Of a stretch of 27,218 nucleotides of DNA, positions 2,610-26,245 are shown in pieces (position 1 is the stretch's first letter; every line of letters begins with the position of its first letter). The notes beneath the pieces were generated by a model. It worked only from the letters and a program-made list of their open reading frames with translations, was not told the origin of the DNA and searched no databases. The position numbers were made by a program, and so were the translations under genes. The DNA is from a virus, in the IMG/VR virus record IMGVR_UViG_3300020122_000109, positions 1 to 27,218 of that record, one strand, 5' to 3'.

Positions 2610-2612
2610 GGG

Positions 2613-4232: not shown

Positions 4233-4241
4233 TGGTAAACT
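4233..4241 (+). promoter_or_regulatory. Extended -10-like element, leaderless arrangement
   Basis: TGGTAAACT, followed by AG, ends 5 bases before ATG 4247. A transcript starting about 7 bases after the hexamer would begin at the start codon. No -35 box is evident upstream. Confidence 0.55.
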
Positions 4242-4246
4242 AGGGC

Positions 4247-4669
4247 ATGGCGAAACGTACACCGAAGTCGACCGACCCCACGGAGCCCGAGCAGACGCCG
4301 GAGCCCGAGCAGACGCCGGAGCCCGAGCAGACGCCGGAGCCCGAGCAGACGGTGGCCCCGCCCGCGCCCTCGAACGCCAACAAGCGGCGGTGGTTCGAGC
4401 GTTTCTATCGCGGGGGCGTGAACATCTACGTTCGGCTCGACCCGAAGCACGAGGGCTTTCGCTCCGAGGATTACCCGGTCGACGGCCGACTCGACGCCGC
4501 GGGGTTGCTCGTCCTCCAGTGCGGGATCGCGGTCCTGCCGGCGGTGCAGGAATTTCGGTTCGACGACCTCGGGTTCTCGGGCCGCTGGAAGGTCGGCGAC
4601 ACGTTCCGCGATGTCTTCGCGCGTTGGGAGTCCGTGAAGCGCATCAACGACGAGGCTTTCGAGGACTGA
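4247..4669 (+). CDS. Hypothetical protein with Glu-Pro repeat linker, between terminase and portal
   Basis: The product has 140 residues. Residues 13-36 are four copies of the hexapeptide E-P-E-Q-T-P (the last ends in V), an acidic extended linker. The C-terminal domain of about 90 residues begins with a basic aromatic stretch (K-R-R-W-F-E-R-F-Y) and continues with mixed alpha/beta-type sequence ending in D-E-A-F-E-D. Its place between terL and portal suggests a head or packaging role, perhaps a head-tail joining or small terminase function, but no motif supports either. The start is set by the promoter-like element five bases upstream; a clear ribosome site is absent (AGGG is only one base from the ATG). 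Confidence 0.7.
   Translation: MAKRTPKSTDPTEPEQTPEPEQTPEPEQTPEPEQTVAPPAPSNANKRRWFERFYRGGVNIYVRLDPKHEGFRSEDYPVDGRLDAAGLLVLQCGIAVLPAVQEFRFDDLGFSGRWKVGDTFRDVFARWESVKRINDEAFED
4283..4354 (+). repeat. Four 18-bp tandem repeats
   Basis: Units of GAGCCCGAGCAGACGCCG start at 4283, 4301, 4319 and 4337; the last ends GTG instead of CCG. They encode the E-P-E-Q-T-P linker. The near identity suggests recent slippage expansion. Confidence 0.85.
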
Positions 4670-4676
4670 CGCCCCG

Positions 4677-4700
4677 GTTTACCACCCGCGGGTGGTAAAC
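4677..4700. promoter_or_regulatory. Perfect 24-bp palindrome over the portal promoter
   Basis: The left half GTTTACCACCCG is followed directly by its exact reverse complement, ending in GGTAAAC. The right arm contains most of the extended -10-like element of the portal gene. With no T-run after it, it is a poor intrinsic terminator. It looks more like an operator for a dimeric regulator, or a hairpin at the 3' end of the preceding transcript. Confidence 0.6.
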
Positions 4701-4701
4701 T
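4693..4701 (+). promoter_or_regulatory. Extended -10-like element before portal
   Basis: TGGTAAACT, followed by AG, ends 5 bases before GTG 4707. Sequence and spacing are identical to the copy at 4233. It overlaps the 24-bp palindrome. Confidence 0.55.
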
Positions 4702-4706
4702 AGCAC

Positions 4707-6155
4707 GTGAGCCGACTCGCAGACGCAGCCAAGGCCCTCCTCGGCATCTCCACCTACCAGAAGCCGACGACGTACCTCGGCGGGGACCTCTCTGACCTCG
4801 ATATCGAGGCGATCCGCGCATCGATTGGAGGAGGGCAGCTCGGTCCGCTCCCGCACACCCAGACGCGGTGGTACCTCGCCGACCTCGAGACCGCGCAACG
4901 CAAGGCGGACGTCGGCGACGTCTCGGCCGCAGCTCGCCTCTGGTCGTCGATCCGGACCGACGGCACGGCCTGGGGTCTCCGGCGTACCTTGAGCTCCGGG
5001 CTCGTGCGTCTGCCGCGGCGCTTCTACGGCGACGACGAACTCGTGAAGGAGCTCCAGGAAACGAACGGCACGCGGTCGCAATTCGACGACATGTTCCCGC
5101 CGGCGGAGCTCGCCCTCATGGCCGACGACGGCCACGGCCTCGGAGTCAGCGTCGGCGAGCTCGTGCCAGTCCAAGGGCGCGATCTGCCCGTGCTCGTGCG
5201 GCTCGAACCCGAGTTCCTCTACTACCGCTGGTCCGACAACCGCTGGTTTTACAAGTCGATCGCGGGCCTGCTCCCGATCACGCCCGGCGACGGCCGCTGG
5301 ATCCTCCACCTGCCAGGCGGGCGCGTGAACCCGTGGCGCAACGGCGTGTGGCGCGCGGTCGGCCGCTCCTACATCAACAAGGAGCACGCAATGCTCCACC
5401 GCTCGAACTTCTCGGCGAAGCTCGCGAACCCGGCCCGCGCGGCAACGGCGCCCATGGGCGCGACTGAGGAGCAGCGCGTCGGGTTCCTCTCGCGCGTGAT
5501 CGCGTGGGGCGTCAACACCGTGTTCGAGCTCCCGATCGGGTGGGACGTCAAGCTGATCGAGTCGAACGGCCGCGGGTACGAGGTGTTCCAGCAAGAGATC
5601 GCGAAGTCCGACGAGGAAATGATGATCTCGCTCGCCGGCCAGGTGGTCACCACGACCGGCGGCGCAGGCTTCTCGAACGCAGACATCCACCGTCTGATCC
5701 GAAACGACATCATTCAGGACATCGGGGACGCGCTCGCGTACACGCTCAACACGCAGGGCTTGACCGCCTACGCGTTCGCGCGCAAGAAGGCGAGCTGGCA
5801 GGAACACCAGGTCACGGTCGAGTACGTGACCAAGGCCCCGAAGGACCACGAGGCCGAGGCTCGGACCATGGTCACGATCGGCAACGGGATCGCGCAGGTG
5901 CGCGCAGCAATCGCGCCCGACGGCAAGAAGCCCCAGGTGGGCGAGATCATGACCCGGTACGATATTCCGGTCGCGGACATGACCCCGGAGGAGAAGGCCG
6001 CCGCGGCCGCGCGAACGCCTCAGGACCTCACGCCGACCGAGTCCGCGCAGAAGGTCGAGGCCGACGCCGGGACCGAGAAGACGAGCGCGGGCGACCCCGG
6101 AACGACGAAACAAGAGCAGCGCGAACGCGCTCCCGAAGACGACCAGGACGCCTGA
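4707..6155 (+). CDS. Portal protein (Mu gp29/DUF935-like)
   Basis: The 482-residue product has portal size and lies between terminase and head protease, the standard portal position. Residues about 70-110 (L-W-S-S-I-R-T-D-G-T-A-W-G-L-R-R-T-L) match the start of Mu-type portal proteins, where an Asp is followed by a helix ending in Arg residues. A long helical stem region follows (E-V-F-Q-Q-E-I-A-K-S-D-E-E), then a T-T-G-G-A-G-F-S-N-A-D segment and a helical crown. The C-terminus is a polar Glu/Lys/Gln tail. The portal forms the dodecameric DNA entry ring of the head. GTG 4707 is chosen by the promoter element and the sequence start; there is no Shine-Dalgarno site. The end is a tandem TGA-TAA. 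Confidence 0.75.
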   Translation: MSRLADAAKALLGISTYQKPTTYLGGDLSDLDIEAIRASIGGGQLGPLPHTQTRWYLADLETAQRKADVGDVSAAARLWSSIRTDGTAWGLRRTLSSGLVRLPRRFYGDDELVKELQETNGTRSQFDDMFPPAELALMADDGHGLGVSVGELVPVQGRDLPVLVRLEPEFLYYRWSDNRWFYKSIAGLLPITPGDGRWILHLPGGRVNPWRNGVWRAVGRSYINKEHAMLHRSNFSAKLANPARAATAPMGATEEQRVGFLSRVIAWGVNTVFELPIGWDVKLIESNGRGYEVFQQEIAKSDEEMMISLAGQVVTTTGGAGFSNADIHRLIRNDIIQDIGDALAYTLNTQGLTAYAFARKKASWQEHQVTVEYVTKAPKDHEAEARTMVTIGNGIAQVRAAIAPDGKKPQVGEIMTRYDIPVADMTPEEKAAAAARTPQDLTPTESAQKVEADAGTEKTSAGDPGTTKQEQRERAPEDDQDA

Positions 6156-6169
6156 TAAACTGGCGCGCG

Positions 6170-6178
6170 TGCTAGATT
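6170..6178 (+). promoter_or_regulatory. Extended -10-like element before the head protease
   Basis: TGCTAGATT ends 6 bases before ATG 6185. It is part of a small dyad, GCTAGA-TT-TCTAGC, at 6171-6184. No ribosome-binding site is visible. Confidence 0.5.
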
Positions 6179-6184
6179 TCTAGC

Positions 6185-7582
6185 ATGCCTGAATCGGCCA
6201 AGCTCCGGTATGACAAGCTCGGGCCGGCCGCGATCCTGCTCTCCGCCTATCGCGAGACCTTCGCGGCGGTCACCGTCGCGGAGCCGGTCGACGACGCGGG
6301 CGTGGCGTGCGTGGAGGTGTGCGGACCGCTTACTCAGCGCGCCGGACAAGGTTTCGACTCGTACGAGTCCGTGCTCGCGCGCGTGCGCGCGGCGCTCGCG
6401 ACGCCCGCCCGCGTCGTTCTCCTTCGGATCGGGAGTCCCGGGGGCGATGTCTACGGATGTTTCGAAACCGCGCGCGCCGTCCGCGCCGCGGCCGACGCCA
6501 GCGGCAAGCGACTCGTGGCTTACGTGGACGGGCAGGCAGCGAGCGCGGCATACGCGCTAGCCTGCGCAGCGGACGAGATCGTGCTCCCTGCGTCGGCGTG
6601 CGTCGGATCGATCGGCTGCGTCGACATGCTCGCCTCGGTCGCGCGGCAGGATGCGGCCATGGGAATCGACTTCGCTGTGGTCACGAGCGGCGCGCGCAAG
6701 GCGGACGGGAATCCGCACGTCCCAATCTCCGAGGGCGCGCTCGCGGCGCACCAGGGGCACATTGACGAACTCGAGGCCGTGTTCTTCGCATGGGTGGCGG
6801 AGCGCCGGGGGATCTCGGTCGAGGACGTGAAGGGGTTCGAGGCCGCGTTGTTCATCGGGGAGAAAGCGGTGGCTGCGAAACTAGCCGACCGCGTCCAAGA
6901 TTTCTACGACCTGCGTGGTACACTAACTGCAACTGCACCAACCGTGCCACAGGGAATCCAGATGACGACCCCGAAAGCATCCAAGTACACCGACGCCATG
7001 GCGGCGCTCGCGGCGCTCGCGGAAGAAGGCGACGAGGACGCGAAAAAGGCCATGAAAAAGATGCTCTCGCCGGCGAAGGCCGCCGAGGACACCGGCGAGA
7101 AGGACGAACCGAAAAAGGACGAGTCCAAGGCCGAGGCGTCGGACGACGAGAAGAAAGATAAGGACGCTGCGGGAGCGAAAGCGCTCGCGCAGGCGAACGT
7201 GGACGCTCTCGCCGAGGTGATCAAGCTTCGGAACGAGATCGCGGCACGCGACGAACGCGACCAGCGGCGCAAACTTCTGGCCTCGCGGCCGGACCTGACT
7301 GCCGACGCGAAGACCAAGGCGATGCTCGAGCGCATGCCGCTCGACACGCTCCGCGAGGCCGTCGAATCGCTCCCCAAGGCGACGCTCCCGGGCGTTCCCG
7401 AGGTGAAGCCGACGCAAGGTGCGCGGCAGAACGTCGGTCAGCCCGAGGCGCAGGCGCGCGACCTTCGGATCGAAATGGGTCTCGAGTCGGTCCCGCGCGC
7501 GTCGGTCACGAAGACCGACAACATGACGATTTTCGGAGGCACGCCCGCGCAGATCGCGGAGCGCCTCGGAGAGGGTAAGTAA
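6185..7582 (+). CDS. S49 (SppA-like) head maturation protease fused to scaffold
   Basis: The 465-residue product joins two domains. Residues about 40-255 are an S49 peptidase. G-S-P-G-G-D-V-Y opens the ClpP-type fold, Q-A-A-S-A-A-Y holds the nucleophile S120, and G-A-R-K-A-D holds the general base K172. This is the dyad of lambda gpC-type proteases, which process scaffold and portal during head maturation. Residues about 260-465 are a charged Lys/Glu/Asp-rich, coiled-coil-forming region typical of scaffold. An in-frame ATG at 6962 (M260), with AGGGA six bases before it and an internal promoter-like element at 6916, would give scaffold alone, like lambda Nu3 inside C. Start ATG 6185 follows a late-promoter element. 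Confidence 0.85.
   Translation: MPESAKLRYDKLGPAAILLSAYRETFAAVTVAEPVDDAGVACVEVCGPLTQRAGQGFDSYESVLARVRAALATPARVVLLRIGSPGGDVYGCFETARAVRAAADASGKRLVAYVDGQAASAAYALACAADEIVLPASACVGSIGCVDMLASVARQDAAMGIDFAVVTSGARKADGNPHVPISEGALAAHQGHIDELEAVFFAWVAERRGISVEDVKGFEAALFIGEKAVAAKLADRVQDFYDLRGTLTATAPTVPQGIQMTTPKASKYTDAMAALAALAEEGDEDAKKAMKKMLSPAKAAEDTGEKDEPKKDESKAEASDDEKKDKDAAGAKALAQANVDALAEVIKLRNEIAARDERDQRRKLLASRPDLTADAKTKAMLERMPLDTLREAVESLPKATLPGVPEVKPTQGARQNVGQPEAQARDLRIEMGLESVPRASVTKTDNMTIFGGTPAQIAERLGEGK
6916..6924 (+). promoter_or_regulatory. Internal promoter-like element inside the protease-scaffold gene
   Basis: TGGTACACT followed by AA lies 37 bases before the internal scaffold start at 6962. Nine consecutive codons across and after it (6911-6937) end in A or T, unlike the surrounding GC-ending codons, as if the DNA sequence itself were selected. 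Confidence 0.45.
6962..7582 (+). CDS. Scaffold protein from an internal in-frame start
   Basis: This is a second product of the same frame, 206 residues from ATG 6962. AGGGA at 6951-6955 with a 6-base spacer gives a ribosome site. The sequence starts M-T-T-P-K-A-S-K-Y and is nearly all charged and helical, with an E-E-G-D-E-D-A-K-K segment and a long Lys/Glu/Asp-rich linker. It then has a region of regular helices (A-E-V-I-K-L-R-N-E-I-A-A-R-D-E-R). Scaffold assembles the procapsid around the portal and is then removed by the protease. The nested arrangement is well known for lambda C/Nu3. Here it is inferred from the start, spacing and promoter-like element. Confidence 0.55.
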   Translation: MTTPKASKYTDAMAALAALAEEGDEDAKKAMKKMLSPAKAAEDTGEKDEPKKDESKAEASDDEKKDKDAAGAKALAQANVDALAEVIKLRNEIAARDERDQRRKLLASRPDLTADAKTKAMLERMPLDTLREAVESLPKATLPGVPEVKPTQGARQNVGQPEAQARDLRIEMGLESVPRASVTKTDNMTIFGGTPAQIAERLGEGK

Positions 7583-7585
7583 CCC

Positions 7586-8341
7586 ATGTCGGCTCTCACG
7601 GCTGCGCGGCAAGAGCCGCGCGAGATCACCTGGACGGAGCGGAAGTTCCCGCTCAACGGCGGCTCGAAGGCGTTCGCGGGCGGGATCGCTTGCATCGACC
7701 TTACGGACGGCGTCGTTCGCCCCGCGGCGAACGCCACCACGCAGGTCCCGATCGGGATCTTCCAAGAAGACGTCGACAACTCGGCCGGCGCCGACGGCGA
7801 CCTTTCGGTCAACGTCTCGCTGTCCCGCACGGTGAACGGCCGCTGGTTCCTCAACGATCCCGGCGCTGGCGCCGCGACGTCCGCGCACGTCGGTCAGGAC
7901 TGCTTTCTGCTCGACGACCAGACCGTGACCATGACGCCGACCGGTGCCAGCAAGGCCGGACGCGTTTGGGCGGTTGCAACGAAGGACGGATCGTCCTGCG
8001 TCGCCGTCGAGGGGATGCCCTTCGAGTCCGTGCTCGCACCTGTTCCCGTCGCTCCGGCGTACGCCGCGAACGACTCCGCCCCGGCCTCGATCGTCGCGGG
8101 CGGTTTCTACGACGTGCCGACGACCGGCGCGGCGTCCACGATCACGCTCCCCGCCGCGGCCCCGGACGGCACGATCGCCTACTTCATGGCCGACGGTACC
8201 AAGAACGGCCACACGGTCACGTACCGCGATGCTACCGGCCCGACGGCCCTCACGGCGGCCCTGACCGCCTCGAAACGCCACCTCTGCGTCGTATCGAAAC
8301 TCGGCGGCAAGTGGTTCGCGAACGCAATGGTGAGCCCGTAA
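7586..8341 (+). CDS. Head decoration / capsid cement protein
   Basis: The product has 251 residues and sits between scaffold and major capsid, the usual place for decoration proteins. Residues about 30-75 (G-G-I-A-C-I-D-L-T-D-G-V-V-R-P-A then P-I-G-I-F-Q-E-D-V) resemble the DUF2190-type cement fold, in which a value or status segment is followed by a G-I-x-x-x-x-V strand. Residues about 150-251 look like a second all-beta domain ending in L-G-G-K-W-F-A-N, similar to the ends of the two fibre proteins downstream. The protein may therefore carry a head-surface extension. The start ATG 7586 has a GAGGG about 10 bases upstream. Assignment rests on position and general pattern. Confidence 0.6.
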   Translation: MSALTAARQEPREITWTERKFPLNGGSKAFAGGIACIDLTDGVVRPAANATTQVPIGIFQEDVDNSAGADGDLSVNVSLSRTVNGRWFLNDPGAGAATSAHVGQDCFLLDDQTVTMTPTGASKAGRVWAVATKDGSSCVAVEGMPFESVLAPVPVAPAYAANDSAPASIVAGGFYDVPTTGAASTITLPAAAPDGTIAYFMADGTKNGHTVTYRDATGPTALTAALTASKRHLCVVSKLGGKWFANAMVSP

Positions 8342-8361
8342 CCGGGAAGGACTGAACGACG

Positions 8362-9468
8362 ATGGGTGCCCGCGTACTGACCGCAAGTTTTCTGTTCGAC
8401 TTTAAGTCGAACATGCAGGCGATTTCCGAGCAGAGCTATCAGAACAAGCTCAAGAACCTGCACTACCAGAAGTTCACGCGCTCGCGCACCAGCGACGGCG
8501 AGCGCGAGATCTTGGCCTGGTTGCTCTCGACGGCGCGCCTCCAGCGCAACGGGCAGGGCGGCAACATCGAGTTCGACTCGCTCGCCCAGATCAAGCAGAC
8601 CTACACGCACGGCAACTTCGACGCCGGCCTGAAGATCAAGAAAAACCAGCTCACCGATCTCGACGGTCGGGGCGTGGACATCGCGCGCGAGTGGTCGTCC
8701 CAGATCGGCGCGGACATCGCGTACTTCCCTCAGCGCGAAGTCGTGACCCAGCTCCTCAACGGCGAAACCGGCCTTTGCTACGACGGCAAGGCGTTTTTCG
8801 CGAAGGACCACCCGATCCATCCGGCGCTGACCTCGGGCGGCACCTACGCCAACCTGTTCAGCGGCGCGGCCGCGTCGACCCCGTTGACCGACCCGAACGA
8901 CGCCGGCTACCCGGGCGCGCTCCCGATCGACGAGAGCGTGACCGTGGATGTCGCGATGTCGAACCTGAACAAGGCGCTCGCCTACATCAGCTCGATCAAG
9001 ATGCCGAACGGCATGGATCCCCGGTTCCTGACCGTGAAGGGGATCATCCACCCGCCCAAGCTCCGGGCGCGCGTCCAGCAACTCAGCAACGCCAAGCTCG
9101 TGGCGCAGCCGACCTCCGGCGGTGGCGGTTCGGCGAACGTCGAGGCCGTGGTCCAGGACTGGGCTTTCGGTGAGCCGATTTGCATGGCCGAACTCGGTGG
9201 CGGGGCAAACTACCCGCTCGGCGAGAACGGCGAAGGCTCGACGGTTTCGGGCAGCGACACGTCCTACTACCTCCTCTGCGCAGAGGAACAGACCTCCGAG
9301 ATCGGCGCTCTCGTTTGGATCGAGCGCGAACCGGTCGTCATCCAGTCGTTCACCCCGAACGACCAGGTGGCGCTCGCGGAAGCGCGCGTGTTCGAGTGGC
9401 TTGCGCAGGGACGCGGCGTCGCCGGCTACGGCCTGCCGTACTTCCTGTTCAAGGTCAAGGCGACCTGA
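8362..9468 (+). CDS. Major capsid protein, Mu gpT-like
   Basis: The 368-residue product has the size and position of a major head subunit. The segment Y-D-G-K-A-F-F-A-K-D-H-P (residues 140-151) closely matches the D-G-x-x-F-F-x-x-D-H motif of the Mu gpT capsid family. The N-terminal region (K-S-N-M-Q-A-I-S-E-Q-S-Y-Q) and the helical central part fit an HK97-type fold. No long delta domain is present, consistent with the separate scaffold upstream. ATG 8362 is preceded by GGAAGGA with a 10-base spacer, so it is expressed within the protease transcript. The gene ends at TGA 9466-9468, immediately against the stop of a minus-strand gene. Confidence 0.88.
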   Translation: MGARVLTASFLFDFKSNMQAISEQSYQNKLKNLHYQKFTRSRTSDGEREILAWLLSTARLQRNGQGGNIEFDSLAQIKQTYTHGNFDAGLKIKKNQLTDLDGRGVDIAREWSSQIGADIAYFPQREVVTQLLNGETGLCYDGKAFFAKDHPIHPALTSGGTYANLFSGAAASTPLTDPNDAGYPGALPIDESVTVDVAMSNLNKALAYISSIKMPNGMDPRFLTVKGIIHPPKLRARVQQLSNAKLVAQPTSGGGGSANVEAVVQDWAFGEPICMAELGGGANYPLGENGEGSTVSGSDTSYYLLCAEEQTSEIGALVWIEREPVVIQSFTPNDQVALAEARVFEWLAQGRGVAGYGLPYFLFKVKAT

Positions 9469-9852
9469 TCACTTCGCGCGGGTCTTCTCGCGCAGGTACC
9501 AGATTTCCCAGCGCACGTCGTCGCCGAGCGTCCGACCGAGCAGGTTCGCCCGGTCGCGCGTCACGTCACACGATGCGCCCGCCCGGGCCGTGTCGACATC
9601 GTCGTCCGACTCGGTTTCGGCGAGCTCCCAGATTTGACAGAGCAGGGTCGCGATCTTCGCTTGCTTGTCGAGCGGCTGTCTCGTGAACTTGTCGGCCACG
9701 TCCACCTGCGCGCTGGTCGCGCTGGTGATTAGGCCGTCGCGGATCATCTGACTCGTGACCTGTTCGGCGTGCGCGCGGCGCTCCTTGGCGTCGGCGTGTC
9801 CGAGATTTGCGAAGAGCGAAACCAGCAAGAAAATCGAGAACCCGTAGCGCAT
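9469..9852 (-). CDS. Exported small protein on the opposite strand (possible cargo gene)
   Basis: The 127-residue product starts with a clear signal peptide: M-R-Y-G, a hydrophobic core I-F-L-L-V-S-L-F, and A-N-L-G-H-A as the likely cleavage site near residue 20. The mature part is about 107 residues, charged and helical, with two Cys that could form a disulfide. The gene fills the only large + strand gap between capsid and neck genes. It uses GC-ending codons on the minus strand and ends exactly where the capsid gene ends. A divergent promoter-like element, TGGTATTTT on the minus strand at 9894-9902, lies upstream. The arrangement fits a 'moron', a gene expressed in the lysogen. The function is unknown; a periplasmic effect on the host or on superinfection is speculation. 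Confidence 0.65.
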   Translation of the reverse strand: MRYGFSIFLLVSLFANLGHADAKERRAHAEQVTSQMIRDGLITSATSAQVDVADKFTRQPLDKQAKIATLLCQIWELAETESDDDVDTARAGASCDVTRDRANLLGRTLGDDVRWEIWYLREKTRAK

Positions 9853-9889
9853 TCCCCAAGGCTACCGCGCCGGGAGTCGGCGTCAAGCC

Positions 9890-9898
9890 TGCTAAAAT
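9890..9898 (+). promoter_or_regulatory. Extended -10-like element before the neck genes
   Basis: TGCTAAAAT ends 6 bases before GTG 9905. The following ACCAGCGTGG, which contains the start codon, recurs at 11446-11455 near another copy of the element. Confidence 0.6.
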
Positions 9899-9902
9899 AC
9901 CA
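9894..9902 (-). promoter_or_regulatory. Minus-strand promoter-like element for the exported protein gene
   Basis: Read on the minus strand the bases are TGGTATTTT, an extended -10-like element about 42 bases before the minus-strand ATG at 9852. It overlaps the + strand element at 9890, so the two divergent promoters would compete for polymerase. Confidence 0.35.
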
Positions 9903-9904
9903 GC

Positions 9905-10393
9905 GTGGCGAGTCCGATCAACGTTGCGCAGTGGACGACCCGGACGATCATGCCCGCGGCCGACGTGGCCCAGCTCGAGTCGATCGAGGCCGGGTTCCTA
10001 CAGACGTCCCTCGACGACAATTGGGACTGGATCTGCGACCGTCTGCGAAAGCGTTACAACATCGCGCAGATCCAGACCGCGCCCAACCGGACCGTCCTCC
10101 GCTGGCTCACCAAGCTCGTTACGCGCGACGCCTACGACAAGCGCGGGAACAACCCGAGCGCCGCGAGCGACGCCGAGGCCATCTACAAGGCCGCGGAGCG
10201 CGTGGAGGCTGAGGTCGAGGAAGCGGCCGACAGCCGGGATGGCCTGTTCGAGCTCCCGCTCCTCCCCGGGCAGTCGCCCAGCGGAGTGAGCCGCGGCGGG
10301 CCGCTCAGCTACAGCGAGACGAGCCCGTACGTGTCGACGACAATCCAGGCGGTCAACGGCCGCGTCGAGGACGCGGACGGGCAGGGGACCTAA
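9905..10393 (+). CDS. Head-tail connector, Mu gp36/DUF1320-like
   Basis: The 162-residue protein begins with small polar residues. It then has a helical region beginning D-V-A-Q-L-E-S-I-E and the segment D-D-N-W-D-W-I-C-D-R-L-R-K-R-Y, which fits the DUF1320/gp36 adaptor family found after the capsid gene in Mu-like phages. In that family the protein forms a ring below the portal. Residues about 95-120 are an Ala/Glu helix, and the last 40 residues are polar and probably disordered. The start is GTG 9905, six bases after a promoter-like element, and no Shine-Dalgarno site exists. It heads a three-gene cluster with the next two genes. Confidence 0.6.
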   Translation: MASPINVAQWTTRTIMPAADVAQLESIEAGFLQTSLDDNWDWICDRLRKRYNIAQIQTAPNRTVLRWLTKLVTRDAYDKRGNNPSAASDAEAIYKAAERVEAEVEEAADSRDGLFELPLLPGQSPSGVSRGGPLSYSETSPYVSTTIQAVNGRVEDADGQGT

Positions 10394-10397
10394 CCCC

Positions 10398-10787
10398 GTG
10401 GCCGAGATCGACGACATGATCGCGCGCCTGCGCGGGCTCGGGAAAGCTGCGCGCGACGCCGTGCCCGAGATCGCCGAGGAGTGCCGAAAGGTGATCGCGA
10501 CGAACGTCGCAGCCCAGCGCGGCCCCGACGGCGAGCCGTGGCCGAAGAGCAAGGACAGGCGTCCAGTGCTAGTGGACGCCGCGAAAAACATGTCGGCGCA
10601 GGCCGTCGGTGGGGCCGCGTTGCTGGTCCTCAACGGCCCGGAGGCGCGTCACCATCTCGGCATCGCCCGAGGCAAGGTGCTGCGCCGGATCCTGCCTTCT
10701 AAGGGCATTCCCGCGCCAATGGCCGAGGCAATTCGGCGCTTGCTCGAACGGCGCCTCGACGCCGCGGCGAAGGGGGGCGCGAAGTGA
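10398..10787 (+). CDS. Virion morphogenesis protein, Mu gpG-like
   Basis: The 129-residue product starts with an amphipathic helix (D-D-M-I-A-R-L-R-G-L-G-K). It contains the G-P-D-G-E-P-W-P motif typical of the phage virion morphogenesis / HK97 gp10-like family, in which R-x-P-x-G-x-x-W-x-P is followed by Leu-rich and Arg-rich segments. A Pro-containing segment (L-P-S-K-G-I-P-A-P) precedes the final helix, matching the P-A-R-P-F-L region of relatives in position though not in exact sequence. Members act in head completion or in head-tail joining. GTG 10398 is used. The end overlaps the GTG of the next gene. Confidence 0.65.
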   Translation: MAEIDDMIARLRGLGKAARDAVPEIAEECRKVIATNVAAQRGPDGEPWPKSKDRRPVLVDAAKNMSAQAVGGAALLVLNGPEARHHLGIARGKVLRRILPSKGIPAPMAEAIRRLLERRLDAAAKGGAK

Positions 10788-11419
10788 ACACGTTCGCCCT
10801 TACGCTACTCGTGGCCGACGTCAAGGCGCTGTTCACGGCCGACGGCAACACCGCCAACGTGGTGTTCGGCCCGCGTGAGCCCGCGAAGCAGATCAACCAG
10901 GGTACCGGCCGGGCGAACCGCGTGGTGTTCTCGCCTGGCGACCCGACAGGCAAGGCGGGAAGCTACGAGGGCGCGAAGGTGACCCGCCGCGGGCCGACGT
11001 TCTCGGGCCGCAAGGCGAGCAAGGCCCTTTTGACGTTCCGCGAGCGCGCGACCGTCTATTGCTGGGCGGTCGACGCGACGACCAAGGACACGCTGAACGA
11101 CGAGTCGAAACAGTACGACGCCGCGCGCCTGCTCCACGACGACGTGATCCGGGCCATCTACCGGAGCCCGAATGTAGGCCACGGTTCCTTCACGGTCTCC
11201 GCGCCGCAGTGGCTCCGCGACAAGAAGGAGCGCGTGTACGGCGCCGAGATCATGTTCCAGCTTGAGTTCGAGGCGATGATCCCGGACGAGCCGCACACGC
11301 TCCCGACCGCGATCGTAAACCCGACGGTGGCCACGGGTCCGACCCAGATCACGACCGACACGACGACGAATCCCGTCGTCTACGAGAACGACGGCTCCGA
11401 CACGACGCCACCTCCGTGA
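10784..11419 (+). CDS. Probable tail terminator / neck protein
   Basis: The 211-residue product starts at GTG 10784, overlapping the previous stop (GTGA). It lies just before the tail sheath, where the tail terminator gene normally sits. Residues 1-30 form a helix followed by beta strands. The central part contains T-F-R-E-R-A-T-V-Y-C-W-A-V-D and a helix with Q-Y-D-A-A-R-L-L-H-D-D-V, and the next strand includes E-I-M-F-Q-L-E-F. This strand-helix-strand order is reminiscent of gpU-type terminators but longer. The last 40 residues are Thr/Pro-rich and probably disordered. The assignment rests mostly on position. Confidence 0.5.
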   Translation: MNTFALTLLVADVKALFTADGNTANVVFGPREPAKQINQGTGRANRVVFSPGDPTGKAGSYEGAKVTRRGPTFSGRKASKALLTFRERATVYCWAVDATTKDTLNDESKQYDAARLLHDDVIRAIYRSPNVGHGSFTVSAPQWLRDKKERVYGAEIMFQLEFEAMIPDEPHTLPTAIVNPTVATGPTQITTDTTTNPVVYENDGSDTTPPP

Positions 11420-11433
11420 AACTAGCGGACTTC

Positions 11434-11450
11434 CTGGTTTAAGAAACCAG
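11434..11450. promoter_or_regulatory. Inverted repeat upstream of the sheath promoter
   Basis: CTGGTTT-AAG-AAACCAG is a 7-bp dyad directly before the promoter-like element at 11453. A looser CTGGT/ACCAG dyad stands in the same place before the 18456 element, so this may be an operator. Confidence 0.4.
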
Positions 11451-11452
11451 CG

Positions 11453-11461
11453 TGGTACACT
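11453..11461 (+). promoter_or_regulatory. Extended -10-like element before tail sheath
   Basis: TGGTACACT followed by AG ends 6 bases before ATG 11468. No ribosome-binding site is visible. Confidence 0.6.
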
Positions 11462-11467
11462 AGATGC

Positions 11468-12916
11468 ATGTCGAGTCCCAAAGTCACGATGATCGAGCTC
11501 GACGGCGCGCTTGGCATCCTGCCGACGTCTGCCGGCGACCTACAGGCCATCCTGGGCGACGCGCAGAGCGGACCGACCGCCGCGCCCGCCGCATTTGCGC
11601 GGATCAAGGACGTCGTCTCGACGTTCGGGTCCGGCCCCCTCGTCGAGCACGCAGCGTACGCGCTCGAGCACTACGGCAAGCCTCTCGTCCTCGTGCGCAC
11701 TGCGCGAACGACCCTTGGCGCCTCCACGAACCTGGTCACGTCCGGGGTCACGGGGACGTCGGTCATCACGCTCGACGCGACGGTCCACCCGGTCGACGAC
11801 CAAGAGATCGTGATCAAGGTCACGAACGGCGGGACGATCGGCGTCGCGGGGATCACGCTCACCTACTCGCTCGACGGCGGTCGCACGACCTCGCCTGCCG
11901 TCGCGCTCGGGACGGCGAACACGTACACGGTCCCGAACGGCGGACCGAAATACAACCTCGCGGCCGGGACGCTCGTCACGGGCGACACCTGGACGTCGGT
12001 TTCCCACGCCCCGCTCTGGTCGAGCGCCGACCTCTCGGCCTCGATCGACGCGCTCGCCGCGTCGAAGCTCCCCTGGGAGTACATGACGATCCTCGGCGAC
12101 GCCACCGGTGCCGACCAGGACACGGTCGACGCGAAGCTCGCCTCGATGCACACGGCTGGGAAGCACAAGTGGGCCCAGTTGCACTTCCGGATGCCGAACG
12201 TCGGCGAGTCCGACGCGGCATACCAGACGGCCTTCTCGACCTCGTTCTCGTCGTATACCAGCATCAACATCGAGCGCTACGCCGGCGCGGCGCAGGTTCT
12301 CTCCTCGATCTCGTTCCGGCAGTATCGCCGGCCCGCGCTCCACGCCGTGGCCCCGCTCTACTCCGCGGTTTCGCAGGAACAGGACGTGGCGCAGATCAAG
12401 TACGGTCCGCTTCCTGGCGTCCAGATCCGCGACGGCAATGGGAACCTACTCGAGCACGACGAGTTCGAACAACCCGGCCTCGACGATCTCAAGGCGACGA
12501 CCCTCCGCACGTGGAACGGCCGCGACGGCGTGTTCGTGAACAACCCGCGGATCGCGTGCCCGGTCAACTCCGATTTCCAGTTCGTCCAGTACCGGCGCGT
12601 GATGAACATCGCGCGGACGACACTCCAGGCGTATCTCGAGCTCCGTACGAGCAAGGACATCGTGGTCAACGCCACGACGGGGTTCATCGTCGAGAGCGAG
12701 GCCAAAGACATCGAGTCGGGCGCGAATGCCGCGCTCGAGGCGGCGCTACTCGCGAAGCCCAAGGCGAGCGCAGCTTCGTTCGTGCTCTCGCGCACGGACA
12801 ACCTCCTCTCCACGCAGACGCTCACGTACCAGGAACGGATCGTCCCCCTCGGGTACGCGAAGACGATCACGGGCGACATCGCCTTCAACAATCCTGCAAT
12901 TCGCGCGGTGACGTGA
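11468..12916 (+). CDS. Tail sheath protein
   Basis: The 482-residue product has the size and place (between neck and tube) of a contractile sheath. The N-terminus (K-V-T-M-I-E-L-D-G-A-L-G) begins like sheath proteins of DUF2586-like type. A middle part of Thr/Gly-rich beta sequence looks like an inserted domain. The C-terminal third contains the conserved-looking segment W-N-G-R-D-G-V-F-V-N-N-P-R and an R-R-V-M-N-I-A-R-T helix, features common in sheath C-terminal domains that interlock neighbouring subunits. The sheath surrounds the tube and contracts during DNA injection. The start ATG 11468 is six bases after the promoter-like element and has no Shine-Dalgarno site. Confidence 0.75.
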   Translation: MSSPKVTMIELDGALGILPTSAGDLQAILGDAQSGPTAAPAAFARIKDVVSTFGSGPLVEHAAYALEHYGKPLVLVRTARTTLGASTNLVTSGVTGTSVITLDATVHPVDDQEIVIKVTNGGTIGVAGITLTYSLDGGRTTSPAVALGTANTYTVPNGGPKYNLAAGTLVTGDTWTSVSHAPLWSSADLSASIDALAASKLPWEYMTILGDATGADQDTVDAKLASMHTAGKHKWAQLHFRMPNVGESDAAYQTAFSTSFSSYTSINIERYAGAAQVLSSISFRQYRRPALHAVAPLYSAVSQEQDVAQIKYGPLPGVQIRDGNGNLLEHDEFEQPGLDDLKATTLRTWNGRDGVFVNNPRIACPVNSDFQFVQYRRVMNIARTTLQAYLELRTSKDIVVNATTGFIVESEAKDIESGANAALEAALLAKPKASAASFVLSRTDNLLSTQTLTYQERIVPLGYAKTITGDIAFNNPAIRAVT

Positions 12917-12917
12917 C

Positions 12918-13391: not shown

Positions 13392-13459
13392 TTTCTCGAT
13401 CCTGGCCGCGCGCGACGATGGCGAGATCAGCCTAGAACCGCACGGTCAGGATCGAGGAA
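13392..13459 (+). promoter_or_regulatory. Hairpin that can mask the chaperone ribosome-binding site
   Basis: Bases 13392-13404 (TTTCTCGATCCTG) pair with 13447-13459 (CAGGATCGAGGAA) as 13 continuous pairs, one of them G-U in RNA. The 3' arm contains GAGGA (13454-13458), the Shine-Dalgarno site seven bases before ATG 13466. The 5' arm begins one base after the tube stop. Ribosomes finishing the tube gene would melt it. Confidence 0.6.
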
Positions 13460-13465
13460 ACAGCC

Positions 13466-14378: not shown

Positions 14379-14445
14379 AGCGGAAAACCGATTCAGTTCC
14401 AATCACTTTCGCTGGCCTCGTAAAAATCGGGCAAGTTGGCGCCAC

Positions 14446-14454
14446 TGCTAGACT
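14446..14454 (+). promoter_or_regulatory. Extended -10-like element before tape measure
   Basis: TGCTAGACT followed by AG ends 7 bases before ATG 14462. The short AT-rich spacer (GAAAAC) contains no Shine-Dalgarno sequence. Confidence 0.55.
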
Positions 14455-14461
14455 AGAAAAC

Positions 14462-17435: not shown

Positions 17436-17938
17436 TCGAGGACCGCTTCCTGCGCGCCGTCCGGGCCGTGGTCGACGCCTTCACGGAGCGGACGCGCTGT
17501 CACGTGCCCGTGCGTTACCGCGTGGTCGCGGCGAGCGGCCCCGACCGCTACGAGCTCCAGGCCGTGCGCAAGGCCGCGGGATGGCCCGACCTCGTGCCCT
17601 GCGCCGTAATGCCCGGCGCGGGTGGTTACAAGGCGAGCCTCGCGATCGGCTCGACGGTGCTCGTTCAGTTCGTGGAGGGGGACGTCTCCCTGCCCGTGAT
17701 CACGCACTTCGAAACGCCGGGCGCGCCCGGGTTCGTCCCGATCAGCGTCAAGATCGCGGCCGACGCCGGGACCCCGCCCGCGGCCGCGCGCGTGGGGGAC
17801 ATCGTCTCCATTTTCTTCCCTTCGCCCATGGCCTTTTCCGGAACGATCGGCGGTGTCCCGGCTACGGGAACGGTCGTGATCCCGGGCCCGGGCGTCGGCT
17901 CGATCCAGACGGGATCGACCAAGGTGGGCATCGGATGA
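17432..17938 (+). CDS. Baseplate spike / assembly protein V-like
   Basis: I take GTG 17432 as start because it overlaps the preceding TGA; an in-frame GTG at 17420 is also possible. The 168-residue product contains the OB-fold pattern of gpV/gp45 spike proteins. V-P-V-R-Y-R-V-V-A-A is an early strand. L-A-I-G-S-T-V-L-V-Q-F-V-E-G-D-V-S-L-P-V-I-T is the characteristic G-x-x-V-L-V-x-F-x-x-G-D-x-x-x-P-V-I motif. Repetitive Gly/Pro/Val strands follow that could form the spike helix. The spike pierces the outer membrane when the sheath contracts. No apical His-x-His iron site is visible at the end. Confidence 0.7.
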   Translation: MIEDRFLRAVRAVVDAFTERTRCHVPVRYRVVAASGPDRYELQAVRKAAGWPDLVPCAVMPGAGGYKASLAIGSTVLVQFVEGDVSLPVITHFETPGAPGFVPISVKIAADAGTPPAAARVGDIVSIFFPSPMAFSGTIGGVPATGTVVIPGPGVGSIQTGSTKVGIG

Positions 17939-18414
17939 GCCTCGTCTATCTCGGCTCGCTCTCGCTCGGTCAGGTGATCCCGGGGCTTGGGGTCGCGCTC
18001 GCGTCGGCCGTGCCGCGCATCAACGCGGAGCTCGCGGTCCAAAACGCGACGGTGGCCCAATTGCAGGTCGTTCCGCCGACAATCACGGGCGCGCTCTCCG
18101 CCGCGAACAGCATCGTGGCCGGGATCAACGCCGCAATCGCGCTCGGCGTACAGGTGCCGTCCTTGTCGGTCCAGGTGAACGCAGCGCTCGCGCTGATTGC
18201 GGCGCTCAACATCGAGCTCGGCGCGCTCGCGTTCGACATGTCGGCCCCGGGCATCCACGCCTACGCCTACGCCGGCGATTCGCAGGGGCTCGGGCCCGCG
18301 CTCCCCTCGAGCTTTCCCGGCGGCGCGCCGACGACGCCGTGCAACGCGCTCGTTCTCGCGACGACCATCGGCTCGACGTGGGTCTCGCTCGGTGCGGCGC
18401 TCAAGACGTCGTAA
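17935..18414 (+). CDS. Ala/Val-rich hypothetical baseplate protein
   Basis: ATG 17935 overlaps the spike TGA, giving 159 residues. The first about 100 residues are low-polarity helices with Ala, Val, Leu and Ile and regularly spaced Asn/Gln (A-V-P-R-I-N-A-E-L-A-V-Q-N-A), which suggests a helical bundle rather than membrane helices. A Gly/Pro-rich section with A-Y-A-Y-A-G-D-S-Q-G-L-G follows, then a short hydrophobic end. The position between spike and wedge makes it a baseplate component, perhaps a spike-tip or wedge adaptor. I do not recognise the family. It is the last gene of the tape-measure cluster. Confidence 0.55.
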   Translation: MSLVYLGSLSLGQVIPGLGVALASAVPRINAELAVQNATVAQLQVVPPTITGALSAANSIVAGINAAIALGVQVPSLSVQVNAALALIAALNIELGALAFDMSAPGIHAYAYAGDSQGLGPALPSSFPGGAPTTPCNALVLATTIGSTWVSLGAALKTS

Positions 18415-18427
18415 TTCGCGCTCGTTT

Positions 18428-18452
18428 CTGGTTTCCCAGGTCAGATTACCAG
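18428..18452. promoter_or_regulatory. CTGGT/ACCAG dyad before the baseplate-wedge promoter
   Basis: CTGGT (18428-18432) and ACCAG (18448-18452) form a dyad with a 15-base spacer. It stands three bases before the promoter-like element at 18456, like the tighter dyad at 11434-11450. Confidence 0.3.
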
Positions 18453-18455
18453 CGC

Positions 18456-18464
18456 TGCTAGAAT
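18456..18464 (+). promoter_or_regulatory. Extended -10-like element before baseplate wedge genes
   Basis: TGCTAGAAT ends 6 bases before GTG 18471. It and the following bases to the start codon match the 9890 copy at nearly every position. Confidence 0.6.
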
Positions 18465-18470
18465 ACCAGG

Positions 18471-18872
18471 GTGGCAGACCCGGATTTCGGCACCGATCTC
18501 TCTTGGGGCGATGACCTCGACCCGGCCGGTCGGATGGTGACCGGAATTGACCTGCTCGGTCAAGCGGCGCTCCACAGGCTGACCACGACCCGCGGTGGGT
18601 GCCTCGACGCGCCCGACAACGGGCTCGACGTCGCGGAGCTGCTCTCGCTCGGGATGACCGCCGCGGAGCTCGCTGCCGTGCCCGGGCAGATCGCGCAGGA
18701 GCTCCGCAAGGACGAGCGGTTCCTCGATGCCGAGGTCGTGGTGGGACGGCTGACCGACGGGTTCAACCTCACGATCCGGATCACGCCGAGCGCGGGCCCC
18801 GACTTCGAGCTCGTGCTCTCAATCGCCGACGCTGCGACGAAACTCGTCTCGATCACGAACAAGGGGGTGTGA
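18471..18872 (+). CDS. Baseplate wedge protein, gp25/gpW-like
   Basis: The 133-residue product has the gpW/gp25 size and lies before the J-like wedge gene. Residues 4-20 (D-F-G-T-D-L-S-W-G-D-D-L-D-P) give the typical early acidic segment. A helix with L-L-G-Q-A-A-L-H-R-L-T-T-T-R-G and G-L-D-V-A-E-L-L matches the helix and 'tile' motif of wedge proteins, where helices precede a strand ending in an E-x-R-x-x pattern (here Q-E-L-R-K-D-E-R-F). Final strands L-T-I-R-I-T-P and F-E-L-V-L-S-I complete the fold. The protein forms part of the wedge that triggers sheath contraction. GTG 18471 has no ribosome site but follows the promoter-like element. Confidence 0.7.
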   Translation: MADPDFGTDLSWGDDLDPAGRMVTGIDLLGQAALHRLTTTRGGCLDAPDNGLDVAELLSLGMTAAELAAVPGQIAQELRKDERFLDAEVVVGRLTDGFNLTIRITPSAGPDFELVLSIADAATKLVSITNKGV

Positions 18873-18873
18873 C

Positions 18874-20040
18874 GTGTTCACGGTCGACCAGCTCTTGACC
18901 AAGACGACGACCGAGGCCGTCGAGCAGCAAATGTACGACTACATGGCCGCGGCTGGGCTCTCGACCACGGCCTGGCTCCCGTTCTCGCCGCTGCGCACGC
19001 TCGTCCACGTCTTCGCGATCCTGCTCGCGATCACGATCAACATCGTCGTCGACATCGCGCGCGCGGGCTTTCTCTCCACCGCGAGTGAGGACGGCCTCAC
19101 GCTCACGTCGGCGGAGGTCTACAACGTCGCGCGCATCGAGGCCACGTTCGCGACCGGGACTAACTGCCTCGTTCTCAACAACGCCGGCGGAGGGATCTAC
19201 CACTTCGACCCAGACGAGTTCGTGGTCAAGAACACGGTCACCGGAAAGACGTACCGGAACACGAGCGTGATCGACGTCGGCGCGCTTCAGGTGGGTGTGC
19301 TCGTCTCCCTGCGCGCGGACGAGGTCGGCTCAGCGTCGAACGCGGCCCCGGGTCAGATCACGACCCTGGTCACGGTCGCCAACGGCGTGACCTGTACGAA
19401 CACCGGGACGGTAACGGGGCAGGACGCCGAGATCGACCAAGCGCTCCGCGACCGCGACCTCGACAAGCTCGGATCGCTTTCTCCCGACGGCGCCAAGGGC
19501 GCATACGCGTTCGTCGCCAAGACGCCGACCCTGAACGGGGGCGTGGCGATCAACCGCGTTCGAATTCCTCCACCGCCCGGCGACGGCACGCTCCTGGTGA
19601 TCGTCGCGAACCCGCTCGGCCCCGTATTGGCCGGTGACGTCGCACTGGTGCAGGCCGCGATCGACCTCCTCTCGACGCCCGAGACTGTGACCGCGACCGT
19701 GGTCAGCGCCGCGGCCGCGCCGCAGAGCTATTCGATCACGGTCTGGGTCCCTCGGCGGACGGGGCTGACCTTCGCCGACGTAACGGCGATGACCCGCGCA
19801 GCGATCGTGAACTACATCAACGCCCTGCCGATCGGTGGGCTCGACATCGGGACCGGCAACAAGATCCCGTGGCGTGCCGTCATCGGCGCAGCGGAAAACG
19901 CCTCGCCCGACAACGGCGCGACGCACCCGGTCGAAGCTGCGCAGCTCCTCTCCGAGGTCGACACGACGCTCGCGAGCAACCAGGTGGCGACGATCGACGC
20001 GCTCTCGATCACGGTCCTCACGATCCTTACGGACGACTGA
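18874..20040 (+). CDS. Baseplate wedge protein J-like
   Basis: The 388-residue product matches baseplate J in size and place, directly after the gp25-like gene. The N-terminal helices hold a hydrophobic stretch (H-V-F-A-I-L-L-A-I-T-I-N-I) followed by A-R-A-G-F-L-S-T-A-S-E-D-G-L-T-L, a region that in J proteins carries the A-x-G-x-x-L motif. Beta-rich middle strands (G-G-G-I-Y-H-F-D) are followed by V-T-N-like and G-P-V-L-A-G-D-V-A segments. The C-terminus has alternating strands (Y-S-I-T-V-W-V-P) and a helix-strand end. J subunits form the wedge ring with gpI. GTG 18874 has AAGGGGG nine bases upstream. Confidence 0.75.
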   Translation: MFTVDQLLTKTTTEAVEQQMYDYMAAAGLSTTAWLPFSPLRTLVHVFAILLAITINIVVDIARAGFLSTASEDGLTLTSAEVYNVARIEATFATGTNCLVLNNAGGGIYHFDPDEFVVKNTVTGKTYRNTSVIDVGALQVGVLVSLRADEVGSASNAAPGQITTLVTVANGVTCTNTGTVTGQDAEIDQALRDRDLDKLGSLSPDGAKGAYAFVAKTPTLNGGVAINRVRIPPPPGDGTLLVIVANPLGPVLAGDVALVQAAIDLLSTPETVTATVVSAAAAPQSYSITVWVPRRTGLTFADVTAMTRAAIVNYINALPIGGLDIGTGNKIPWRAVIGAAENASPDNGATHPVEAAQLLSEVDTTLASNQVATIDALSITVLTILTDD

Positions 20041-20043
20041 CCC

Positions 20044-20856
20044 ATGGCCGACCTCCTCCGCGTTCGCGACGTAGTGCGCAAGTTCCTGCCGCAGTGGATG
20101 CTGGACCGCGTCGCGGCCGGTTTCACGGTCGGCTTTCGGTACATCTACGTCTTTGCGTTGATGTGCGATCTGTTGATCCAGTTCGCGCTCGAGGGCATTT
20201 TTCTCAAGTTTCCAAGTCTGGCGCCGAGCGCCGCGCTCGACAAGATTGGGCAGAACCGACGGATCCGCCGTGGACTCGCGGATTCGGACGCGAGCTATCG
20301 CGCGCGCCTGCTCCTCTGGATCGACTCGTGGCGGCGCGCGGGTTCCGCGTACGCGATCATGCAGCAACTCCGCGCCTATCTCGGCGTCGCGGGGACGATC
20401 CGGATCGTCAACGCGAACGGAACCTGGTGGACGCTGAAACCCGACGGCACGTTCGAGCGCGTCGTCACGCTCCCGACCAAGAATTGGAACTGGGACGGCA
20501 ACGCGGCGTTGTGGGCCCGCTTCTGGGTGGTGCTTTACGCCGCCGACTACGGCTGGACGAGCGACGGCACCTGGGGAGACGGAGCCGTGTGGGGCGACAA
20601 CGGCCTGGGGTGGGGCCTAGGAAACTTGAGCTGGCAAAGTGTTCTAGACCTGCGTGGTATAATTTCAGACTGGAAGTCCGCGGAAAGCGTGTGCAAAAAC
20701 GTGCTGATCTCGTTCGACCCTAGTTTCCCGGCCCCGACCGATCCTGCCGGCGCACCCGAGCCCGACGGCACTTGGGGCTCGTTCTACAAGGTCGTGGCGG
20801 GGGTCGCCGTGCCCGCGCGTGACGCGCGCTTGCTCTACTGCGCGGGGGCCGAATGA
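20044..20856 (+). CDS. Tail protein I-like (baseplate wedge to fibre link)
   Basis: The 270-residue product follows J and precedes fibre genes, the position of gpI. The N-terminal part is helical (L-L-R-V-R-D-V-V-R-K-F-L-P-Q-W-M). A domain rich in Arg (R-R-I-R-R-G-L-A-D-S-D-A-S-Y-R-A-R-L) follows, then Trp/Asp/Gly-rich beta repeats including W-N-W-D-G-N-A-A-L-W-A-R-F and D-G-T-W-G-D-G-A-V-W-G-D. The Arg-rich L-x-x-W-x-x-x-W segments are common in gpI-like proteins, which connect the wedge to fibres. An unusually AT-ending codon stretch near 20620-20665 coincides with a perfect extended -10 sequence. The stop overlaps the next ATG. Confidence 0.6.
   Translation: MADLLRVRDVVRKFLPQWMLDRVAAGFTVGFRYIYVFALMCDLLIQFALEGIFLKFPSLAPSAALDKIGQNRRIRRGLADSDASYRARLLLWIDSWRRAGSAYAIMQQLRAYLGVAGTIRIVNANGTWWTLKPDGTFERVVTLPTKNWNWDGNAALWARFWVVLYAADYGWTSDGTWGDGAVWGDNGLGWGLGNLSWQSVLDLRGIISDWKSAESVCKNVLISFDPSFPAPTDPAGAPEPDGTWGSFYKVVAGVAVPARDARLLYCAGAE
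20655..20663 (+). promoter_or_regulatory. Consensus extended -10 sequence inside the tail I-like gene
   Basis: TGGTATAAT is a perfect extended -10. It shares the 13 bases GACCTGCGTGGTA with the internal element at 6916. Codons around it are A/T-ending, unlike the gene's norm. It lies about 190 bases before the fibre gene start at 20853. Confidence 0.4.
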
Positions 20857-25189: not shown

Positions 25190-25211
25190 TCACGAAAGGT
25201 TGACGATTCCC

Positions 25212-25790
25212 ATGAAAAATCTAGGGCGAATGGTTCTCACGATCGTAACGCTGGTCTGCCTCGTCGGCGTCGCAGGCGCCGTGCTCCCGAGCGGCCCCGG
25301 CCAGACGGACATGGCACACAGCAAGTCCGTGGTGGTGGCGTCGGACCAGGTCGTGCCCGCTGCCTCGCCGGACCACTCGACCGACGCGACGTTCACTCTT
25401 GCCGTGTGGGTCACCAACAACGGAAGCGCCAACGTTACCGGGGTCCCCGCTACCGCGAACGTCCTCTTGACCGAGAACGACCCCAACACGACCTCGCCGG
25501 CCGCTGCGCGCGTCGTGCGGGTCACTGCCAAACGTGGCGGAACACAATTCATGGGTGGCGGATTTTGGAGAGGATTCACCAACGGCGTCGGGACCTCGAT
25601 CGTGGTTCAGCCTTGGTATTTCGACGACACGCTCGCAACCTGGATCAAGTTCGGTCCGGCGGTCACGATCACGAACTCTACAACGAACTTGACGGCCGCC
25701 GTGACGATGGGAAACATGGCCGGCGCGAAGTTCTTCCTACAGATTACGACGGTCACGGGCGCGACCGCCCTGGGATACGACTACCAGTGA
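25212..25790 (+). CDS. Signal-peptide-bearing hypothetical protein after the tailspike
   Basis: From ATG 25212 the product has 192 residues. It begins with M-K-N-L-G-R-M, a hydrophobic core V-L-T-I-V-T-L-V-C-L-V-G-V and A-G-A as a likely cleavage site, so it should be exported or membrane-anchored. The mature part is Thr/Val/Asn-rich beta sequence, similar in character to fibre domains. The AAAGG at 25195-25199 lies 12 bases before the ATG, which is longer than ideal. A TTG at 25200 would spoil the signal start. It lies between the spike and lysis genes. It could be a secreted adhesin-like or lysogenic-conversion protein. No family is recognised. Confidence 0.6.
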   Translation: MKNLGRMVLTIVTLVCLVGVAGAVLPSGPGQTDMAHSKSVVVASDQVVPAASPDHSTDATFTLAVWVTNNGSANVTGVPATANVLLTENDPNTTSPAAARVVRVTAKRGGTQFMGGGFWRGFTNGVGTSIVVQPWYFDDTLATWIKFGPAVTITNSTTNLTAAVTMGNMAGAKFFLQITTVTGATALGYDYQ

Positions 25791-26041
25791 AAAGTCGGCG
25801 GCCTTCCACGACAGAGCTCCTGCGCGAGCTCGCGACTCGACCCGCCATGAACGGCGGATTCGCAAAGCTCGCAGCCCAGCAAGACGAGCAGTGCGAGCGC
25901 TTGAAAACGCTCGAGGAGCGATTCGACCGCTGGGACCGCTGGGGGCGCTGGATCGTGGGCGCGGTCGGAACCGTGGCGGTCTCCGTGATCGGGCGGATGG
26001 TTGTGGACCTGGTTTCTCACCTCCAGGTGTCGCTACACTGA
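25787..26041 (+). CDS. XhlA/holin-associated-like membrane protein
   Basis: GTG 25787 overlaps the preceding TGA, giving 84 residues. The first 45 residues are charged and helical (L-L-R-E-L-A-T-R, then E-R-L-K-T-L-E-E-R-F-D-R-W-D-R-W), a likely coiled coil. Residues about 55-78 (W-I-V-G-A-V-G-T-V-A-V-S-V-I-G-R-M-V-V-D-L) are one transmembrane helix near the C-terminus. That coiled-coil-plus-C-terminal-helix layout is typical of XhlA-type holin partners. It sits directly before a small hydrophobic gene and the endolysin, so a lysis role is likely. Confidence 0.6.
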   Translation: MKSRRPSTTELLRELATRPAMNGGFAKLAAQQDEQCERLKTLEERFDRWDRWGRWIVGAVGTVAVSVIGRMVVDLVSHLQVSLH

Positions 26042-26043
26042 CG

Positions 26044-26052
26044 TGGTAAACT
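26044..26052 (+). promoter_or_regulatory. Extended -10-like element before lysis genes
   Basis: TGGTAAACT followed by AG ends 7 bases before ATG 26060. The AGGGA inside the spacer is too close to the start to be a good ribosome site. Confidence 0.55.
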
Positions 26053-26059
26053 AGGGACC

Positions 26060-26245
26060 ATGAATCCCACCACTCTCCGAAGTCTTCTCACGTTCGGGGC
26101 CGTCGCCGCGGGCTCCGCGGCTCAAATGCCCGGTGTCAACCCGATCCTCGCGCAAGCCCTCGTGGCGGTGGCGGGGTTCCTCGCCGGCTGGGCCCACATG
26201 CAGAAGCCCGGCGCGGACGTTCCGCCCGCTCCTCCGACGGCCTGA
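26060..26245 (+). CDS. Small holin-like membrane protein
   Basis: The 61-residue product begins after the promoter-like element. It has a weakly hydrophobic N-terminal region (L-L-T-F-G-A-V-A-A-G-S-A-A) and a clear membrane helix near residues 28-46 (I-L-A-Q-A-L-V-A-V-A-G-F-L-A-G-W-A). It ends in a Pro/Ala tail. Two possible helices joined by a P-G-V-N-P turn fit a short class II-like holin. Its neighbours are an XhlA-like protein and, downstream, an endolysin. Holins open the inner membrane at the end of infection. The TGA is immediately followed by the ATG of the next gene. Confidence 0.55.
   Translation: MNPTTLRSLLTFGAVAAGSAAQMPGVNPILAQALVAVAGFLAGWAHMQKPGADVPPAPPTA

Follow-up and report, generated by a model that had tools for sequence, protein, structure and literature searches.

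Gene content of the phage and layout of its late region

The window analysed here is the whole viral record IMGVR_UViG_3300020122_000109 (27,218 bases, ~66% GC). It belongs to a temperate, contractile-tailed myophage whose early region is located outside the contig. The 3' half of a tRNA-Phe found between integrase gene and terL is a probable attachment site (attP), and the contig is therefore likely derived from an excised or virion genome. The following genes and features are present:

989–2149: integrase gene
~2357–2405: 3' half of tRNA-Phe with CCA, probable attP
2613–4220, + strand: terL
start ATG 4247: gene for a 140-aa protein of unknown function
4707–6155, + strand: portal gene (phrog_113)
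6185–7582, + strand: protease gene (phrog_53)
8362–9468: capsid gene
module head GTG 9905: neck genes
11468–12916, + strand: sheath gene, homologous to those of Mx4 and Riverbug
between sheath and tape measure genes: tube gene, then chaperone gene
14462–16228, + strand: tape measure gene (tape measure families)
start GTG 18471, + strand: baseplate wedge gene (phrog_975)
late region: other baseplate genes and a fibre gene with a pectate-lyase-like domain
module head ATG 26060: lysis module; lysozyme gene at the end

Several further observations concern gene content. Tandem repeats at 1–285 code for GGDxATVT-like units and are weakly similar to the ice-binding beta-roll profile PF21300, under its cut-off. 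At the tail chaperone position, ORFs overlap (13466–14082), with a possible programmed frameshift near GAAAAACCC. Small ORFs on the − strand occupy two module junctions, 9469–9852 before 9905 and ~14080–14380 before 14462. The first of them has a signal-peptide-like beginning and TAGCCT 6 nt before its ATG. We infer that such counter-oriented insertions may have favoured new promoters at these two junctions.

The tRNA-Phe half matches 78 stretches of other bacteria. GC-rich matches with the same anticodon stem were considered as host and rejected because their tetranucleotide agreement is poor. The tRNA pattern is absent from 396 genomes, and sheath-profile searches of ~300 genomes (phyla of three centres) yielded no close prophage.

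A conserved element at the heads of the late modules

The motif TGSTANAHT has 11 exact matches on the + strand of the window and none on the − strand. By chance, 0.35 matches are expected for both strands together, and 11 were reached in none of 100 dinucleotide shuffles. This is at odds with an equal frequency at random positions, the outcome that the preliminary description had named as evidence against its proposal. Eight of the 11 copies end 5–7 nt before a start codon. These are the eight strong copies claimed there, and all were found with the places and spacings given. The copies, together with a weak one before terL, are:

2599–2607, + strand: weak copy TGCCAAAAT, 5 nt before terL GTG 2613
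4233–4241, + strand: TGGTAAACT, 5 nt before ATG 4247; −35-like GGTGAT at 4216–4221
4693–4701, + strand: TGGTAAACT, 5 nt before portal GTG 4707; −35-like GGTTTA at 4676–4681
6170–6178, + strand: TGCTAGATT, 6 nt before protease ATG 6185; −35-like TGATAA at 6153–6158
9890–9898, + strand: TGCTAAAAT, 6 nt before neck-module GTG 9905; −35-like GGAGTC at 9873–9878
11453–11461, + strand: TGGTACACT, 6 nt before sheath ATG 11468; −35-like GGTTTA at 11436–11441
14446–14454, + strand: TGCTAGACT, 7 nt before tape measure ATG 14462; −35-like GGGCAA at 14429–14434
18456–18464, + strand: TGCTAGAAT, 6 nt before wedge GTG 18471; −35-like GGTCAG at 18439–18444
26044–26052, + strand: TGGTAAACT, 7 nt before lysis-module ATG 26060; −35-like GGTGTC at 26027–26032
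3618–3626, + strand: internal copy TGCTACAAT within terL, without −35-like element
6916–6924, + strand: internal copy TGGTACACT in the protease gene, 37 nt before the in-frame ATG 6962
20655–20663, + strand: internal copy TGGTATAAT in gene 20044–20856; matrix score 10.1

In this GC-rich genome, TG, TA, A and T are the invariant bases of the element, and the extended −10 positions are among them. All eight heads carry TGn directly upstream of TAnnnT, as defined for extended −10 promoters. In addition, they correspond to the TANNNT definition of leaderless genes, a −10 element ~5–8 nt before the start codon. When every ATG or GTG opening at least 60 codons was considered, eight of ten TGNTANNNT sites located 0–24 nt before a start were found at 5–7 nt and two at all remaining offsets, the offsets directly adjoining this range being empty. 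With a matrix built from the eight heads, the top-scoring other site on both strands is the terL copy at 2599 (18.1 vs 24–33 for the training sites), in agreement with the weaker copy proposed before this gene. The gene starts at 8362, 13466 and 25212 are preceded by gaps, yet they lack the element; therefore, not every gap contains such a promoter. Two of these starts, 8362 and 13466, have a Shine-Dalgarno (SD) site.

At seven of the eight heads, no match of at least 3 nt to AGGAGG is present 4–11 nt before the start. The eighth, 26060, has only AGG at a distance of 4 nt, so that the proposed lack of usable SD sites is clear for seven heads and qualified for one. Among the other late genes, 11 of 19 have an AGGAGG match of at least 3 nt, and several of the remaining ones overlap or abut the preceding gene.

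Besides the starts that follow a gap but lack the element, the preliminary description overlooked two properties. First, the region upstream of the eight heads contains six conserved, GGT-rich columns that begin at −17 (−35-like hexamers listed above). Among 3000 sets of random positions, one reached such conservation anywhere in −40 to −1 (P 0.0003) and none did so at the −35 position. The box is not TTGACA-like, and no standard −35/−10 promoter (TTGACA-like hexamer with standard spacing) was detected within 2400–19000. Second, three exact copies lie within genes. Synonymous-codon shuffles of the coding sequence gave a mean of 0.24 internal copies, and three were never reached in 600 shuffles. 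Such a non-random occurrence is expected of a protein-DNA signal, not of a translation signal. The copy at 3618 may be due to chance. The copy at 6916 could serve a putative nested scaffold protein starting from ATG 6962 and translated from an mRNA with leader. In other phages, nested scaffolds begin at comparable places within the protease gene.

Distribution of the element among related and unrelated phages

A sheath alignment comprised 19 contigs (L171–L189) with 43–53% identity that have kept the late gene order. In these syntenic relatives the element is missing: TGNTANNNT at 5–7 nt is at background across 80 loci. Similarly, no element adjoins the starts in the distant relatives Myxococcus phage Mx4, Thermus phage Riverbug and Meiothermus phage MMP17. 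All these phages share late gene order and homologous proteins with the phage studied here but do not carry the element at module heads. Many of the relatives' sheath, capsid and tape-measure homologues closely follow the preceding gene. Some starts, chiefly those of sheath and capsid genes, have a purine-rich SD-like site; at others, neither signal is clear. Single-protein searches of viral or genome contigs revealed no close relatives, and a portal search found two contigs at 53–54%, both without the element. The element is not a conserved feature of this myophage family, and one promoter-like element per late module is unusual among the close relatives of this phage. The layout either arose in the lineage of this phage or was lost in the relatives; the first is simpler. 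A different arrangement was observed in MMP17 (L170, 9220 and 12448) and Riverbug (L168, 11949), where blocks with an extended −10 TGCTANNCT are located ~55–100 nt before late genes. These are likely late promoters with leaders.

The search for the element at the same spacing in other phages, suggested at the outset, had a divided outcome, with the syntenic relatives devoid of it and three other phages positive. In Clavibacter phage CN1A, five of five TGNTANNNT sites are at 6–7 nt. Microbacterium phage Alleb has four of five at 7 nt, two of these four at annotated starts (protease 14751 and chaperone 24469). In contig L311 (IMGVR_UViG_3300025502_000066), eight of ten are at 5–7 nt, and the element precedes HNH, portal, protease and other genes at this distance. 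The L311 portal is 46% identical to that of CN1A, and the hosts of CN1A and Alleb are Actinobacteria. Like the phage studied here, the three have an extended −10 element 5–7 nt before portal, protease, chaperone and other starts. However, their late regions are unrelated, the consensus is looser and the hexamer is not generally followed by AG. For Arthrobacter phage Wheelbite, no such peak was found for the TG-extended form. Among the matches listed by a scan of the collection for TGGTAAACTAG-N3-5-ATG, most were AT-rich contigs and probably due to chance, but L311 and L338 were also obtained in this way. In CN1A (L387, − strand), portal homology extends past the annotated start 16864 towards ATG 16978, which follows TGCTAAACT-N6. 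The portal start seems to be annotated too far downstream.

The preliminary description knew of no earlier account of such a set. For the kind, this did not hold: leaderless middle and late mRNAs of phages as well as late phage promoters of the extended −10 type have been published, and isolated actinophages show the signature. Leaderless late promoters of this kind are known already from other phages. Most middle and late mRNAs of Thermus phage phiYS40 are leaderless (PMC3594737). For its middle and late promoters, PMC4842269 cites Sevostyanova 2007. In Bradyrhizobium, leaderless mRNAs are preceded by the extended −10 box TGnTA, and promoters of leaderless phage genes are noted to contain a motif that resembles it (PMC4842269). 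A positional rise at 6–8 nt was also evident here when the initial 50 kb of phiYS40 were analysed. The extended −10 motif similar to TGnTA at leaderless genes is common to both phages, but phiYS40 is a large 152-kb Thermus phage with a looser motif. Middle and late promoters of Thermus phage P23-45 are of the extended −10 type (PMC7403470). Here, too, host RNA polymerase acts on extended −10 promoters of middle and late genes. In contrast to P23-45 with its sigma-remodelling factor gp39, no such factor is known for the phage studied here. The late half of P23-45 has no TGNTANNNT site at 5–7 nt. In bacteria, leaderless gene frequency was estimated across phyla (PMC3160421), and TANNNT beside ORFs was tested in Deinococcus, where it acts as −10 of leaderless genes (PMC12340547). 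Leaderless genes of Deinococcus-Thermus, Actinobacteria and other bacteria resemble those proposed here in having TANNNT few bases before the ORF (PMC3160421, PMC12340547). They are, however, cellular, and their described motif lacks the TG extension, whereas in our case the element is common to nearly all late modules of one phage.

Proposed leaderless module transcripts and competing explanations

We consider it likely that the eight elements, probably together with the terL copy, are extended −10 promoters that give rise to separate leaderless mRNAs for the late modules. Promoter identity, start points and leaderless translation are deduced from motif sequence, spacing, enrichment and the lack of SD sites at the heads. 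The elements (TGnTAnnnT, sigma-A/sigma70 type) would be read by host RNA polymerase, with the last T of the hexamer at position −7. Sigma-A polymerase initiates ~7 nt beyond the final T of the −10 element. A start codon 5–7 nt beyond this T would be located on or within ~1 base of the transcription start, so the head mRNAs would be leaderless. Head genes would be translated by initiation at a 5'-terminal AUG or GUG, while downstream genes of each transcript would use SD sites or overlap the preceding gene. The late region would thus consist of ~8–9 units: terL; 4247; portal; protease-capsid; neck; sheath-tube-chaperone; tape measure-hub-spike; wedge-fibre; lysis.

If the elements are promoters for leaderless mRNAs, this would explain why their spacing is so strict, why SD sites are missing and why only one orientation occurs. 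This reading is the best supported one: Statistics, strand bias, a spacing that fits sigma-A, the lack of SD sites and the same layout in unrelated phages all argue for it. Absence of the element from syntenic relatives and the three internal copies not adjoining a start codon count against it. The original proposal of one leaderless mRNA per module from its own promoter is retained as the best reading of statistics, spacing and SD distribution, but not as a family-wide feature. Terminator-like sites on both strands number 17 vs 10.7 expected (sd 4.2), with no clear excess between modules. As no clear terminator excess separates the modules, read-through from upstream could contribute to their expression.

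The promoters might need a phage factor, either a late activator bound to the GGT box or a protein that remodels sigma like gp39 or AsiA. We regard this as unlikely; it is a more specific form of the favoured explanation and not its opposite. The significant GGT-rich box that does not resemble TTGACA and the absence of standard promoters mentioned above are in accord with it. Moreover, P23-45 gp39 and T4 AsiA favour extended −10 promoters likewise (PMC7403470). On the other hand, an extended −10 promoter can function without −35 contact (PMC7403470), and no such factor is encoded within the window, which lacks the early region (longer relatives have ~43–45 kb). A still bolder and somewhat less likely idea is that an ancestral late operon, originally continuous, was remodelled by the phage into a regulon. 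The eight to nine leaderless promoters of this regulon, nearly identical to each other, would be switched on jointly by a phage factor, which would either recognise the GGT-rich box or modify sigma.

It is improbable that the elements are instead dyad-symmetric operators (TGSTA-N3-TASCA) for a phage repressor or activator over the late module starts. The longest perfect palindrome of the window, the 24-nt GTTTACCACCCGCGGGTGGTAAAC at 4677–4700, covers the portal element. Dyads are also found at 6170 and at 11434, the −35-like GGTTTA of the 11453 head being part of CTGGTTT-AAG-AAACCAG, and TGCTANAATACCA at 9890 and 18456 is partly symmetric. But dyads are confined to three heads and do not share their sequences, the half-sites mostly lack complementarity at their third base, and operators require neither a single orientation nor a fixed distance to the start codon. 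Much less probable is a translation or processing signal in the mRNA that substitutes for SD. The element is near start codons and present where SD sites are absent, but its invariant positions are those of an extended −10 element, internal copies exist without a nearby start, and a −35-like element co-occurs. Chance or a composition artefact, of negligible probability, is refuted by the dinucleotide and codon shuffles, the strand distribution and the offset counts.

If the regulon idea were true, late expression would be tied simultaneously to a change of host transcription and to leaderless translation. Irrespective of this, the leaderless promoter reading makes the phage a compact and testable case: a temperate myophage whose structural modules each seemingly have a leaderless mRNA, while those of its syntenic relatives do not. 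Since the relatives lack the layout, a single family offers the opportunity to study this change. The signature in Clavibacter and Microbacterium phage isolates points to an under-reporting of leaderless late genes in phages and to some misplaced start annotations, e.g. that of the CN1A portal gene.
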